From Phycisphaerae bacterium (GTDB lineage: Bacteria; Planctomycetota; Phycisphaerae; Sedimentisphaerales; Anaerohalosphaeraceae): a stretch of DNA of 34,016 nt. Where the stretch lies: contig JAAYCR010000063.1 in NCBI GenBank assembly GCA_012729675.1, positions 1-34,016 of the forward strand, read 5' to 3'. Under the pieces are notes generated by a model. It was given only the letters and a program-made list of their open reading frames with translations. It did no database searches and was not told the origin of the DNA. Shown here in pieces: positions 17,168 to 33,119 of this stretch. The position numbers were made by a program, and so were the translations under genes. The first letter of the stretch is position 1, and each line of letters begins with the position of its first letter.

Positions 17168-17173
17168 AATGAT

Positions 17174-17201
17174 TGACTATTGACTATTGGCTATTGATTA
17201 T
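17174..17201. repeat. Four tandem 7-bp units immediately upstream of dnaJ
   Basis: TGACTAT, TGACTAT, TGGCTAT and TGATTAT follow each other without gaps. The array ends six bases before the dnaJ start codon and adjoins the inverted 7-bp arms at 17209-17284. Confidence 0.85.
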
Positions 17202-17208
17202 TAAAAGA

Positions 17209-17284
17209 AGGTAGAGGTTAGAAGTTAGAGACAAGTTCTGCTTCCAGCCTCTGCGATCTAACCTCTACCCTCTATCATCTATCA
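17209..17284. repeat. Inverted arms of 7-bp tandem units between groEL and dnaJ (empty element)
   Basis: The left arm is AGGTAGA, GGTTAGA, AGTTAGA (17209-17229). The right arm is TCTAACC, TCTACCC, TCTATCA, TCTATCA (17257-17284), the reverse complement type. The core GGTAGAGGTTAGA (17210-17222) pairs perfectly with 17257-17269. The spacer is 27 bp with no gene. The right arm begins eight bases after the groEL stop. Confidence 0.85.
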
Positions 17285-17292
17285 TCCGATCT

Positions 17293-26702: not shown

Positions 26703-26729
26703 GCCACAGAGGGCACAGAGGACACAGAG
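26703..26729 (+). repeat. Left arm, three 9-bp units (NNCACAGAG), before gatB
   Basis: GCCACAGAG, GGCACAGAG and GACACAGAG are contiguous, 19 bp upstream of the gatB start. They are inverted relative to the arrays at 27371-27397 and 27779-27805, so the transcript could pair across the intervening genes. Confidence 0.9.
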
Positions 26730-26772
26730 TTGTTTTATTAACTTTTTTCAGAAGAGATCACTATCCAAACAT

Positions 26773-27363
26773 CTACACATTTAAAAAAATAAACCATAAA
26801 TAAAAAGTGCTATCTGTTTTATGCCATGCGTATTGAAATATGTCATTACCAATAGAGCAGAAAGCATCTCCTCTTAGCATTTTAATATCCGGTTTCATCA
26901 ATTGTATCTCAATAGATGAAGAAGGATGAATATAAGTTCCATCTTCTTTGAAAACGATACCCCTTGCGATTTTGCTGAGTATTCTGTTGATCCGGCTTGT
27001 TTCAGCGAAGAAAACTTCGCCGTTTCCCAAGATAATTCCACCTTCTGATAATATATCTACAGAATTAATATGGTCATTTATATAACTTTTGTATTTATGG
27101 GACTCCGATCTATTGAGACTTCGTAGTATTTTTTCTTTCCATAAATCTTTCATTTCTTTGCATTCAGAAAAAGCGGCAACTGACAAGAAAAAAAGGAAAT
27201 ACTCATCATCTTTTTCATGCTCCTTATTGCACTTGATGTGCGTTGGAACCGTTAGAAGATTAGACGTTTTCTTCGGGAAGATGCTTTTGGGTGGAATGTG
27301 ATCCTTAGAGTCAGCTTTATCTTTTCCACATAAATAGCAAATTTTATCATTTTTTGATATCAA
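26773..27363 (-). CDS. HNH-endonuclease-like protein, cargo between gatA and gatB
   Basis: The protein has 196 residues from TTG 27363. The reading frame stays open upstream through the 9-bp repeat array to 27399, where it would encode the artefact-like PQRTQRAQR; no ATG exists near the N-terminus. CYLCGKDKADSKDHIPPKSIFP, then VPTHIKCNKEHEKDDEYF, fits an HNH-type zinc-finger nuclease fold: a CxxC pair, a D-H catalytic pair and a C-N ligand position. The rest of the protein is not recognised. Base composition is visibly AT-richer than the gat genes, which suggests transfer. Function is not known; a homing or element-mobilising nuclease is an inference from fold and context. Confidence 0.7.
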   Translation of the reverse strand: MISKNDKICYLCGKDKADSKDHIPPKSIFPKKTSNLLTVPTHIKCNKEHEKDDEYFLFFLSVAAFSECKEMKDLWKEKILRSLNRSESHKYKSYINDHINSVDILSEGGIILGNGEVFFAETSRINRILSKIARGIVFKEDGTYIHPSSSIEIQLMKPDIKMLRGDAFCSIGNDIFQYAWHKTDSTFYLWFIFLNV

Positions 27364-27370
27364 TGTATTT

Positions 27371-27397
27371 CTCTGTGCTCTCTGTGTCCTCTGTGGC
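27371..27397 (-). repeat. Middle array of three 9-bp units
   Basis: On the coding (minus) strand: GCCACAGAG, GACACAGAG, AGCACAGAG. It starts eight bases after the GxxExxY stop and ends seven bases before the HNH start, dividing the two cargo genes. Its AGAGGA/AGAG content can act as a ribosome-binding site. Confidence 0.9.
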
Positions 27398-27405
27398 AAA
27401 AAAAA

Positions 27406-27771
27406 CTATACAGACACCCGTTTGATACCGTTAATCAACCTATCTTCGCCGAAGTTGATAATCAAGCCGCGTTTTAGTTTTGTTGCTTTCAAATATGAGA
27501 TCGTTTGCGAGAGCGCAACGGCCGTCGGCAGCTTGACGGCTTTTAATTCCACGACGACCTCATTCTCAACGAGAAGGTCGATCTTTAGCCCCTTGATTTC
27601 ACGCCCTTTATAGACAATATCAACAGGCACTTGCCGTTGGTGCTGAATACTCTGCAATTGAAATTCATGGCAAAGCGCCTCTTCGTAAATGGACTCCAGC
27701 AATCCCGGCCCCAATTCCTTATGGACTTCAATGGCCGCCCCAATGATTCGTTCTGTAAGTTTATCTGCCAT
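27406..27771 (-). CDS. GxxExxY family protein, cargo between gatA and gatB
   Basis: The protein has 121 residues beginning MADKLTERIIGAAIEVHKELGPG. The signature G-L-L-E-S-I-Y (residues 23-29) defines the GxxExxY family. The later VDLLVENEVVVELKA-like region (here IDLLVENEVVVELKAVKL) and QTISYLKATKLKRGLIINFG complete it. The D...E-x-K arrangement resembles a restriction-nuclease-like core, but the function of the family is unknown. ATG 27771 is preceded by CACAGAGATATAAA, so the last repeat unit appears to supply the ribosome-binding site. A longer frame to 27942 overlaps gatA and is rejected. The gene is bracketed by 9-bp repeat arrays on both sides. Confidence 0.88.
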   Translation of the reverse strand: MADKLTERIIGAAIEVHKELGPGLLESIYEEALCHEFQLQSIQHQRQVPVDIVYKGREIKGLKIDLLVENEVVVELKAVKLPTAVALSQTISYLKATKLKRGLIINFGEDRLINGIKRVSV

Positions 27772-27778
27772 TTTATAT

Positions 27779-27805
27779 CTCTGTGTTCTCTGTGTCCTCT
27801 GTGGC
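27779..27805 (-). repeat. Right arm, three 9-bp units after gatA
   Basis: On the coding strand: GCCACAGAG, GACACAGAG, AACACAGAG. It starts 12 bases after the gatA stop codon and ends seven bases before the GxxExxY start. It has the same orientation as 27371-27397 and is inverted relative to 26703-26729. Confidence 0.9.
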
Positions 27806-30334: not shown

Positions 30335-31243
30335 CTACAAATGGTCAAATCCTTTGGGTTCCAGTTTTGCTATCTTGCCATCAAGTGTTTGCAATCTCAT
30401 GCCGCATTCGGCGGTGATTTCGCCGATGCGGGTAATTGAAATACTTTTTAATCCCGCCAGCTTGCCAAATTCCGAAGGCGCGATTGCAAAGAGCAGTTCA
30501 AAATCTTCACCGTCGTTCAATGCAGCCGCAAGCGGGTCACCGCCCTGCCGTGCGGCCTCGGAGACGGGCAGCATCGCGGCCTCTACTATCGCCCCGACGT
30601 TGCTTTGCGTGCAGATGCGGTTCAGGTCAGTGCTTAACCCGTCGGTAATATCCATCATCGAATGAATACGGGCGGCCTTTGTGATGGCCAGCGCCTCGTT
30701 GACCCGCGGCACAAACGTCAAGTGTTTGTGCGCCAGCGATCCGCCCAGCGTCCCCGTCACACAAATCACATCTCCGGCCTGTGCCCCGTTTCGCCGCACG
30801 GGGGCGTGATGGCCGCTCGGAACGCTCAGCATCGTCACACAAATCGCCAGCCGGTCGCCACCCTGCCACTTCGTAATATCCCCGCCGATCAGCTCACAGT
30901 CAAACATCCGCCCGGCCCGCAGCAGCCCGGCGTGCAGTTCTTTGAGCCGCTCGCCGCCGAACCCCTGCGGCAGGCCCACCGCACACACCGCACAGATCGG
31001 CACGCTCGCCATGGCCGCACAATCGCTCAGACTGGCCGCCATCGCCTTATACCCCGCCTGTTCCAGCGAACACGACGACAGGTCAAAATGCGACCCGTCC
31101 AAAAGCATATCCGTCGTGACAAGCACCGACTCGCTCGGCGCAACGTTCACCTGCGCCATATCGTCACCGATACCAATGGGGAATCTTGCCGCGTCAATCT
31201 TGCTTTGTTGAGCAAACCAGGATGTCATTTTGTCTTCTTTCAT
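30335..31243 (-). CDS. thiL: Thiamine-monophosphate kinase
   Basis: ThiL phosphorylates thiamine monophosphate to thiamine diphosphate with ATP. The 302 residues from ATG 31243 carry the ATP/Mg block GIGDDMAQV near residue 24, [13 protein letters not shown], then [27 protein letters not shown] and [14 protein letters not shown], with [10 protein letters not shown] near the C-terminus. Two starts are possible (31243 or 31228). I prefer 31243 because [12 protein letters not shown] fits the usual spacing to GIGDD. It is flanked by repeat elements on both sides: 8-bp units upstream, 9-bp units downstream. Confidence 0.93.
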
Positions 31244-31251
31244 TGTATTAT

Positions 31252-31283
31252 GAACACAAGAACTCAAGGACTCAAGAACTCAA
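31252..31283 (+). repeat. Left arm, four 8-bp units, between the four-helix gene and thiL
   Basis: GAACACAA, GAACTCAA, GGACTCAA and GAACTCAA are contiguous, eight bases before the thiL start. They adjoin (three bases) the stop of the four-helix-bundle gene. The array is inverted relative to 31670-31717. Confidence 0.9.
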
Positions 31284-31286
31284 GAA

Positions 31287-31646
31287 TTAGTTGTTTTCGA
31301 TTTTAGAGCGATAAAGAGACAACAACTTGCTGACTTCTTCGGCCTGTTCTTTCATCTGTGCCGTCTGACAATAGGCCAAATCCTGTGCCAGAATCAGATA
31401 ATATCGAATCTCTTCAAGTGAACCGTAAGCAATCGTCAGGAAATGCGATTTTTCCGCCTTCGACTTCTTTTTGAATCCCTCAGCAATGTTTGCCGGAATT
31501 GAAACAGCCGCCCGCCTCATTTGGCTGACAAGCCCATATAATTCTGATTTGGGAAAATCCTGGGTTGATTTATACACAGAAAGCACAAGCTGATGTGCTT
31601 TTTGCCACACAAATAAATCTTCAAATTTCTTCGCCGGCTGATTCAT
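31287..31646 (-). CDS. Four-helix bundle protein (S23 / 23S rRNA intervening-sequence type)
   Basis: The protein has 119 residues. FEDLFVWQKAHQLVLSVY, then SELYGLVSQMRRAAVSIPANIAEGF and AYGSLEEIRYYLILAQDL are the hallmarks of the S23/four-helix-bundle family. These proteins were first seen encoded in intervening sequences of 23S rRNA and are related to the Avd accessory protein of diversity-generating retroelements. The molecular role is unknown; the family forms basic pentameric barrels that bind nucleic acid. ATG 31646 has GGGAG upstream. The gene is bracketed by inverted arrays of 8-bp units and inserted between argH and thiL, so it looks like cargo rather than part of the operon's metabolism. 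Confidence 0.92.
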   Translation of the reverse strand: MNQPAKKFEDLFVWQKAHQLVLSVYKSTQDFPKSELYGLVSQMRRAAVSIPANIAEGFKKKSKAEKSHFLTIAYGSLEEIRYYLILAQDLAYCQTAQMKEQAEEVSKLLSLYRSKIENN

Positions 31647-31669
31647 TCAGTTACTCCCTTCTTCTTTCA

Positions 31670-31717
31670 TTCTTGTGTTCTTGAGTTCTTGTGTTCTTGT
31701 GTTCTTGTGTTCTTGTG
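31670..31717 (-). repeat. Right arm, six 8-bp units after argH
   Basis: On the coding strand the unit is CACAAGAA (one copy CTCAAGAA), six times in a row. It starts ten bases after the argH stop and ends 23 bases before the four-helix gene start. Confidence 0.9.
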
Positions 31718-31727
31718 TCCTTCCTCC

Positions 31728-33119
31728 TCATTGTTCTTTGAGCTTTTCTTTCCAGTATTTGATCTGTGCCTTGGCCGCTGTCGGCCCGGCGGAGCCGAGT
31801 GTTTTGTACGCTTGACAGACGCCTGCCGGGTTCAGCGCAACATACACATCCTCGTGGATCTTGTCGCACGCAGCCTTAAACTGCTCGATGGATAAATCCG
31901 CAAGTTTCTGCTTACCTTCTTTCTCGCACTGCGCCACCAGCCCCCCGACGATGCCGTGGGCCTGGCGGAACGGCACGCCGCGATTGACCAGATACTCGGC
32001 CAAGGCGGTGGCGTCGAGGAAGCCCTCATCCAGCCCGGCCGCAATCTTGGACGTATTAAATGCCGTATGGCTGACAATCGCCTCGGCCATCTGCAAACAG
32101 GCCGCGGCATTGTCCGACGCCGCAAAGACGTGCAGCTTGTCCTCCTGCAGGTCGCGGTTGTACGTCGAAGGCTGGGCCTTCATAATCGTCAGCATCGCCA
32201 CCAGCGCCCCGTAGGCCGTCCCGGTTTTGCCCCGAATCAGCTCCAGCATATCCGGGTTGCGTTTCTGCGGCATCATGCTCGAACTGGTGCAGTACGCATC
32301 ATCCGTTCGGATAAACCCGAACTCTGAGGCCGTGTACAGAATCCAGTCCTCCGCCAGCCGCGACAGATGCGCCGCGATCAGCGAACAGCAAAAGATATAC
32401 TCGGCACAGAAATCCCGGTCGGAGACCGCGTCGATGCTGTTATACGTAATATCCGCAAACCCCAAAAGCTCCGCCGTCTTTGTCCGATCCAGCGGCAGTG
32501 TCGAGCCGCCCACCGCCCCGCTGCCCAAGGGGCACACGTTGAGCCGTTTGCGACAGTCCTTCAGCCGGCTCCAGTCGCGAGCCAGCATCTCGACAAAGCT
32601 GAGCAAGTACGACGCGATACTGACCGGTTGTGCCCGCTGCAAATGCGTATAAGCCGGCATCACGGCGTCGGTGTACTTCTCCGCCAGCTTGACCAGTGCC
32701 CGCTGCAAAAGCGTGATATGCGTCTGCATGATCTCGATCTCATCACGCATCCACAGCCGGATGTCCGTCGCCACCTGATCGTTGCGGCTGCGGCCGGTGT
32801 GCAGCTTGCGTCCCGCATCCCCCGTCTTGGCAATCAGTGCCGACTCCACCGCCATGTGGATATCCTCCTGCGTCACATCAAACGCAAACGTCCCAGCCGC
32901 GATCTCCTCGCCGATCTCAATCAGCCCCCGCTTGATCTCGGCCAGTTCCGCGTTGGTCATCAGCTTCTGCGCCGCCAGCATTTCCGCATGCGCAATCGAC
33001 CCGACGATATCCACCTTGTACAGCCGCCGGTCAAACGACAGCGACTCCACAAAATGCACCGCCAGCTCATCCACCGACCCGCTCAACCGCTTTTCCCAGC
33101 TCTTTTCGGCCTTTGCCAT
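31728..33119 (-). CDS. argH: Argininosuccinate lyase
   Basis: ArgH catalyses the last step of arginine synthesis, splitting argininosuccinate to arginine and fumarate. The 463 residues include HTGRSRNDQVATD, THLQRAQPVSIASYL, SGAVGGSTLPLDR and the family signature GSSMMPQKRNPD. ATG 33119 has GAGGAA upstream and a near-consensus promoter. It heads the long leftward gene cluster that ends at gatB. Confidence 0.97.
   Translation of the reverse strand: MAKAEKSWEKRLSGSVDELAVHFVESLSFDRRLYKVDIVGSIAHAEMLAAQKLMTNAELAEIKRGLIEIGEEIAAGTFAFDVTQEDIHMAVESALIAKTGDAGRKLHTGRSRNDQVATDIRLWMRDEIEIMQTHITLLQRALVKLAEKYTDAVMPAYTHLQRAQPVSIASYLLSFVEMLARDWSRLKDCRKRLNVCPLGSGAVGGSTLPLDRTKTAELLGFADITYNSIDAVSDRDFCAEYIFCCSLIAAHLSRLAEDWILYTASEFGFIRTDDAYCTSSSMMPQKRNPDMLELIRGKTGTAYGALVAMLTIMKAQPSTYNRDLQEDKLHVFAASDNAAACLQMAEAIVSHTAFNTSKIAAGLDEGFLDATALAEYLVNRGVPFRQAHGIVGGLVAQCEKEGKQKLADLSIEQFKAACDKIHEDVYVALNPAGVCQAYKTLGSAGPTAAKAQIKYWKEKLKEQ

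Follow-up and report, generated by a model that had tools for sequence, protein, structure and literature searches.

The S23 proteins first became known from inserts in ribosomal RNA. To our knowledge, S23 is a widespread family, named after these inserts, for which two structures have been solved and no function has been assigned, and the mechanism by which the rRNA intervening sequences (IVS) spread has been an open question since the 1990s. In Coxiella, the complementary ends of the IVS form a 28-bp stem that is cut by RNase III (PMC4990558). Short tandem arrays have been described elsewhere: the TAACTGA repeats of the Beggiatoaceae are intergenic 7-bp arrays organized as direct repeats, and S23 is not mentioned in that report (PMC4679880). 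No link between S23 genes and tandem arrays was found in the open-access (PMC) literature searched.

The window analysed here is a stretch of 34,016 nucleotides, contig C54 of the 2.8-Mb genome of a Phycisphaerae bacterium. Between its argH and thiL genes lies an S23 gene with inverted 8-bp arrays on both sides (Table 1), as the initial annotation had described from the sequence; the matches to the S23 profiles, which lie far above the curated cut-offs (33.8 bits for PF05635 and 24 bits for TIGR02436), the tandem-repeat analysis and the inverted pairing all bear out this observation. The gene order is argH, S23, thiL, with all three genes co-directional. The best inverted pairing between the arms (31670–31722 against 31252–31287) spans 36 nt with 92% complementarity and a spacing of 381 nt. 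Its score of 55–57 compares with at most 29 both for 1164 control ORFs of this genome and for 2000 shuffles; when the unit was permuted with its tandemness retained, 0.3% of the permutations reached the window score. The arms are also paired in the predicted RNA fold of the cassette (z = −4.4). The S23 gene is the sole ORF of the cassette, and neither a transposase nor a recombinase was detected there in the ORF list or by profile search.

Table 1. Positions of the S23 cassette, its neighbours and other arrays and array-associated genes in the window.
Feature	Position	Strand	Basis and remarks
S23/IVP four-helix-bundle gene, 119 aa	31287..31646	-	PF05635, 132 bits, E=1.2e-38; TIGR02436, 122 bits
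5′ arm, upstream of S23; 6.6 copies of the 8-bp unit GAACACAA (gene sense)	31670..31722		TRF score 92
3′ arm, downstream of S23; 4.4 copies of the complementary unit TTCTTGAG (gene sense)	31252..31286		TRF, inverted repeat, predicted fold
Whole cassette (arm, S23, arm), roughly 470 nt	31248..31724	-	Ends inferred, +/- few bases
argH, upstream of the cassette	31728..33119	-	ORF; conserved neighbour in relatives
thiL, downstream of the cassette	30335..31228	-	tblastn match in 37/40 relatives
S23-less inverted 7-mer arrays, GGTAGAGGTTAGAAGTTAGAGA ... TCTAACCTCTACCCTCTATCATCTATCATC	17197..17290		Between dnaJ-like and groEL-like genes (names by eye)
Solo ATTGACT heptamer array	17172..17196		Shares its unit with the arms of S23 cassette L011 (same genome)
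gatB-gatA interval	26705..27803		
HNH-like ORF	26773..27399	-	By eye
GxxExxY gene	27415..27762	-	PF13366
9-bp CACAGAGGA-type arrays, inverted pair	26705..26729 and 27370..27395		
9-bp CACAGAGGA-type array	27778..27803		

The S23 protein is under strong purifying selection, with dN/dS of 0.02–0.22 between related copies. A cluster of polar residues (Q34, R37, S41, N45, E48 and E71) is conserved at 92–99% over 158 homologues. The S23 relatives of solved structure, 2rld and 2gsc, each contain five chains in the entry. Profile searches of S23 against nuclease and recombinase models gave no match, and those against the bAvd and Avd models gave weak scores of 26.6 and 34.8 bits that do not reach the cut-offs (80 for Avd).

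Beyond what the initial annotation covered, the window copy turns out to be one of 11 PF05635 genes in its genome. Ten of the 11 lie between inverted 7–8-bp arrays whose unit differs from locus to locus (GAACACAA, GTAGTTC, GATAGAGGT, CAGTTAA, AAATGTA, AAATTTC, AAAAGGC, GACGATG, ATTGATT and others). Arm scores average 37 over 81 loci from this genome and its relatives and 17 for pairs mismatched across loci; 46 of the 81 exceed the 99th percentile of the mismatched pairs. The array-flanked layout extends to distant phyla and to isolates, including finished cyanobacterial plasmids; 28 of 80 loci from other phyla lie above a stricter arm threshold, and many more carry shorter versions. The design of complementary ends plus an S23 gene, which had been noted at this one site outside rRNA, is thus real and widespread in the genome, its relatives and distant phyla. 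Related S23 genes without inverted flanks had been named as evidence that would speak against the earlier proposal, and most related S23 genes do have inverted flanks.

The arms have a median length of 32 nt and a periodicity of 7 or 14 in 74 of 99 cases and of 8, the period of the window copy, in 10 of 99. The sense strand of the 5′ arm contains 10.5% C, and all S23 cassettes read in gene sense have a C-poor 5′ arm and a G-poor 3′ arm. Unit variants follow a mirror order between the two arms weakly better than in shuffled arms. A function of the arms as three-frame stop-codon insulators was considered and set aside; stops in all frames occur in 34% of 5′ arms and in 16% of shuffled ones, a weak effect. 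Detectable arms are absent from a sizeable minority of S23 genes, notably a tRNA-linked subgroup (L003, L026, L027, L033, L079, L080 and L087), which is mostly without array arms. In several of these loci the upstream flank is common between genomes and resembles the 3′ end of a tRNA gene. A scan of 20 array-less loci for S23 genes inside rRNA gave no Rfam match, and no S23 genes were found in phages.

Comparison of filled and empty sites shows that the gene and both arrays are either all present or all missing. In most relatives argH and thiL are adjacent, with neither S23 nor arrays between them; the site is occupied by the cassette in genomes G000 and G015 and in JANQGW010000220.1. The nearest named relative in the scan, a Sedimentisphaerales MAG (L135), also carries its S23, 79% identical to the window copy, at argH-thiL. 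Within the genus, G000 and G003 carry a cassette at a site in a permease operon where G001 and G002 have none, and another site of G000 retains one arm and the first S23 codons of a decaying copy. The cassettes on cyanobacterial plasmids have AGTCAGG or AGTAGGG arrays, which in several cases abut start and stop codons. A search with the cassette flanks of plasmid site 1 recovered three plasmids of ∼97% identity that lack the gene and both arms. The sequence is aaaaaGTAATtaacaaataa without the cassette and aaaaaGTAAT-[cassette]-GTAATtaacaaataa with it, which makes GTAAT a clean duplication of 5 bp. The duplication at site 2 (TTCTA) is nearly clean, with one base off, and among sites 1–5 only site 1 is clean and only site 2 nearly so. 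Flanking direct repeats of any length show no excess over 92 loci, and target duplication is therefore not established as a rule. The nrdB and nrdA genes of Nostoc edaphicum flank a full-armed cassette in antisense orientation. On a plasmid of Picosynechococcus PCC 7003 (L260), an S23 cassette separates cas10 from cmr3 in a type III-B CRISPR operon, and PCC 7002 is without it; such insertions may be the source of the listing of S23 as a CRISPR-associated gene.

Between cassettes at unrelated sites, homology spans from arm to arm and ends there. Among cassettes at non-orthologous sites, the more alike two S23 copies are, the more alike are their arms (Mantel r=0.24, p=0.001), an effect confined to comparisons in the same sense; the mean arm score rises from 9 at S23 identities below 20% to 27 above 70%. 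The unit at argH-thiL differs by species, GAACACAA, GAATACAA or GGAATATA, with both arms changed jointly, which indicates a concerted change of the two arms. We infer that it is most simply explained by slippage together with template switching from arm to arm.

Heptamer arrays are also found away from S23 genes, and mainly where S23 is present. Five S23-bearing genomes contain 38 such period-7 arrays in 982 kb, compared with one in 964 kb of six S23-less relatives (p=1e-10), and array density follows S23 copy number over the 11 genomes (Spearman 0.96); both statistics are subject to phylogenetic non-independence, and the sample comes from one bacterial order and consists mostly of MAGs. The contrast also holds within one genus, between G015 (eight S23 genes) and G023 (none). 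Period-8 arrays show a weak effect (6 versus 0), and other periods show none. The genome of the window has 19 solo heptamer arrays in 318 kb, mostly single and without an inverted partner. The paired 7-mer arrays between the dnaJ-like and groEL-like genes are probably solo arms, with units that, judged by eye, resemble the arms of S23 cassette L004 from the same genome. Nostoc and Tolypothrix plasmids carry array-only elements, with cassette-like arms around other contents. Two S23-less elements on plasmids of these genera (L274, 1001–1185, and L275, 1001–1182) have AATTCAGGAGTCAG arms around a conserved, hairpin-rich non-coding core of ∼110 nt and are MITE-like.

A different gene family is bounded by arrays in the same window, where the gatB-gatA interval holds a GxxExxY gene and an HNH-like ORF together with 9-bp arrays. 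In relatives (L215–L241), GxxExxY (PF13366) genes likewise lie between inverted arrays of ∼3 copies of 9-bp units, with 0–8 genes per genome, and the units share a vocabulary of CACGAAGGA, CACAGAGGA, CGCGGATTA and CATGAAGCA. These array-flanked GxxExxY genes look like a parallel class of cassettes.

We propose that the feature at argH-thiL is a copy of a mobile DNA cassette without a transposase, in which a single S23 gene sits within terminal inverted arrays of 7–8-bp units and its product binds its own array as DNA and enables insertion; we assign this reading a probability of roughly 0.68. S23 likely recognizes the arrays, and more probably does so as DNA. It would bind its own array either as duplex or as an extruded hairpin, and the array-bound protein could bring both ends of the cassette together, enabling insertion, with the cutting and joining enzyme probably supplied in trans. 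Copying from arm to arm, combined with slippage, would preserve the match between the arms even as their unit changes. A cassette that inserts between the genes of an operon, at a stop codon or just behind it, could be transcribed at little cost to the host. The rRNA intervening sequences would then be rare cassettes that landed in rRNA.

The initial annotation had instead raised the possibility that the RNA is processed at the stem. The feature would then be an mRNA counterpart of an rRNA intervening sequence, with transcript arms that pair, a stem cut by RNase III to free the S23 message, and arms kept for RNA pairing. The arms are indeed able to pair (RNA fold z = −4.4), 55 of 79 insertions are scored '++' relative to their neighbours and are seemingly co-directional by a crude ORF measure, and the Coxiella IVS shares both the protein family and the complementary ends (PMC4990558). 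However, in a selected RNA stem G-U-compatible mismatches are expected to outnumber those of the A-C type, and the arms of 130 loci show no such preference (206 versus 189, p=0.42), whereas the count in acceptor stems of tRNAs from comparable DNA, a rough control, is 22 versus 8. The initial annotation had also suggested looking in the 23S rRNA for an intervening sequence with similar ends; the organism's own 23S rRNA gene is continuous, aligned end to end over 2918 nt, and has no insert. Furthermore, a stem requires neither tandemness nor a period of 7, and the unpaired heptamer arrays elsewhere depend on S23 genomes yet form no stem. Given the lack of a G-U bias, the full-arm antisense insertion between nrdB and nrdA, the uninterrupted 23S rRNA, the presence and absence of the cassette as a DNA insertion, and the S23-linked arrays genome-wide, processing at the stem and the RNA-level reading as a whole are unsupported, and we regard this reading as rather improbable.

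About as unlikely, in our judgement, is a non-autonomous, MITE-like element whose movement is due solely to a transposase from a different family that acts on the arms, S23 being cargo with a separate role. The absence of a transposase from the cassette, the existence of S23-less arms and the 5-bp duplication at one site are consistent with such an element. Among the relatives, S23 copy number also correlates with the number of Y1_Tnp genes (Spearman 0.54, p=0.0004), which could point to a partner or to the overall load of mobile elements. However, some S23-rich genomes have almost no Y1_Tnp (one weak in G030, 0 in G028), and Y1 elements do not as a rule duplicate their target. Moreover, the gene between these arms is S23 across phyla, the arm sequence tracks S23 phylogeny, and the heptamer arrays depend on S23. 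Retroelement-like movement, with S23 acting like the related Avd alongside a reverse transcriptase (RT) in trans, draws on the weak bAvd and Avd scores (below cut-off) and on three RT genes in the genome of the window. The number of RT genes is unrelated to that of S23 genes (Spearman 0.10, p=0.52); no RT was detected in the S23-rich G015, G017 and G030, whereas the S23-less G009 has three. We reject RT-driven movement on the lack of correlation and consider it very unlikely. It is hardly credible that the heptamer arrays are ordinary microsatellites serving as hotspots for S23 gene insertion. The solo arrays are frequent enough in the genome of the window to suggest it, but the arms are inverted rather than the halves of a split direct array, and S23-less relatives have hardly any period-7 arrays. 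The hotspot idea is also contradicted by the empty sites (argH-thiL, the permease operon and the plasmid sites), where no array is present.

The mobile-cassette reading may be part of a wider one, which we advance only tentatively. S23 could be the founding protein of a new mobile or array-building class, a four-helix pentamer that lacks any known nuclease or recombinase motif, recognizes 7–8-bp tandem arrays as DNA, drives cassette insertion, and creates or maintains heptamer arrays genome-wide; rRNA intervening sequences would be special cases of it, and the GxxExxY genes with 9-bp inverted arrays a parallel second class. The link between S23 and arrays, seen in the bounded cassettes and in heptamer arrays found mainly where S23 is present, suggests a genomic role for the S23 family and provides a possible origin for heptanucleotide arrays that have so far lacked an explanation in bacterial genomes.

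The cassette can be placed against several known systems. The diversity-generating retroelement (DGR) accessory protein Avd belongs, on weak model matches, to the same superfamily as S23, but the cassette has no RT, template repeat or variable repeat, and the Avd cut-offs are not reached. REPINs and their RAYT genes likewise tie short inverted repeats to a small gene; unlike them, the S23 cassette contains no tyrosine transposase and no fixed REP sequence. The cyanobacterial STRR or heptanucleotide repeats resemble the arms as intergenic 7-bp tandem arrays, a description that fits S23 arms generally (the window copy has a period of 8), although they are reported as direct repeats, unlike the inverted arms. 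With insertion sequences and MITEs the cassette shares inverted ends, presence and absence at intact sites, array-only derivatives and, at one clean site, a 5-bp duplication. Cassettes of the window type have the inverted terminal repeats and the presence or absence at intact sites of such elements but encode no transposase, and their ends are tandem arrays that vary between copies in one genome. The 23S rRNA intervening sequences of Coxiella, Leptospira and Salmonella are similarly small and sporadically distributed and have complementary ends, and those of Coxiella and Leptospira encode an S23 protein, as the cassette does. In contrast to them, the S23 cassettes lie between protein-coding genes or antisense, have tandem 7–8-bp arrays with locus-specific units and show no RNA-pairing signature, and the organism of the window has no IVS in its own 23S rRNA; the window cassette has the complementary ends of an IVS, but neither its location in rRNA nor a stem signature of G-U over A-C. 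Since the IVS elements share its design, we do not regard the S23 cassette as categorically new. The array-bounded form has the look of mobile DNA of a kind not described before, and on this evidence the cassette, though IVS-related in design, acts at the DNA level.
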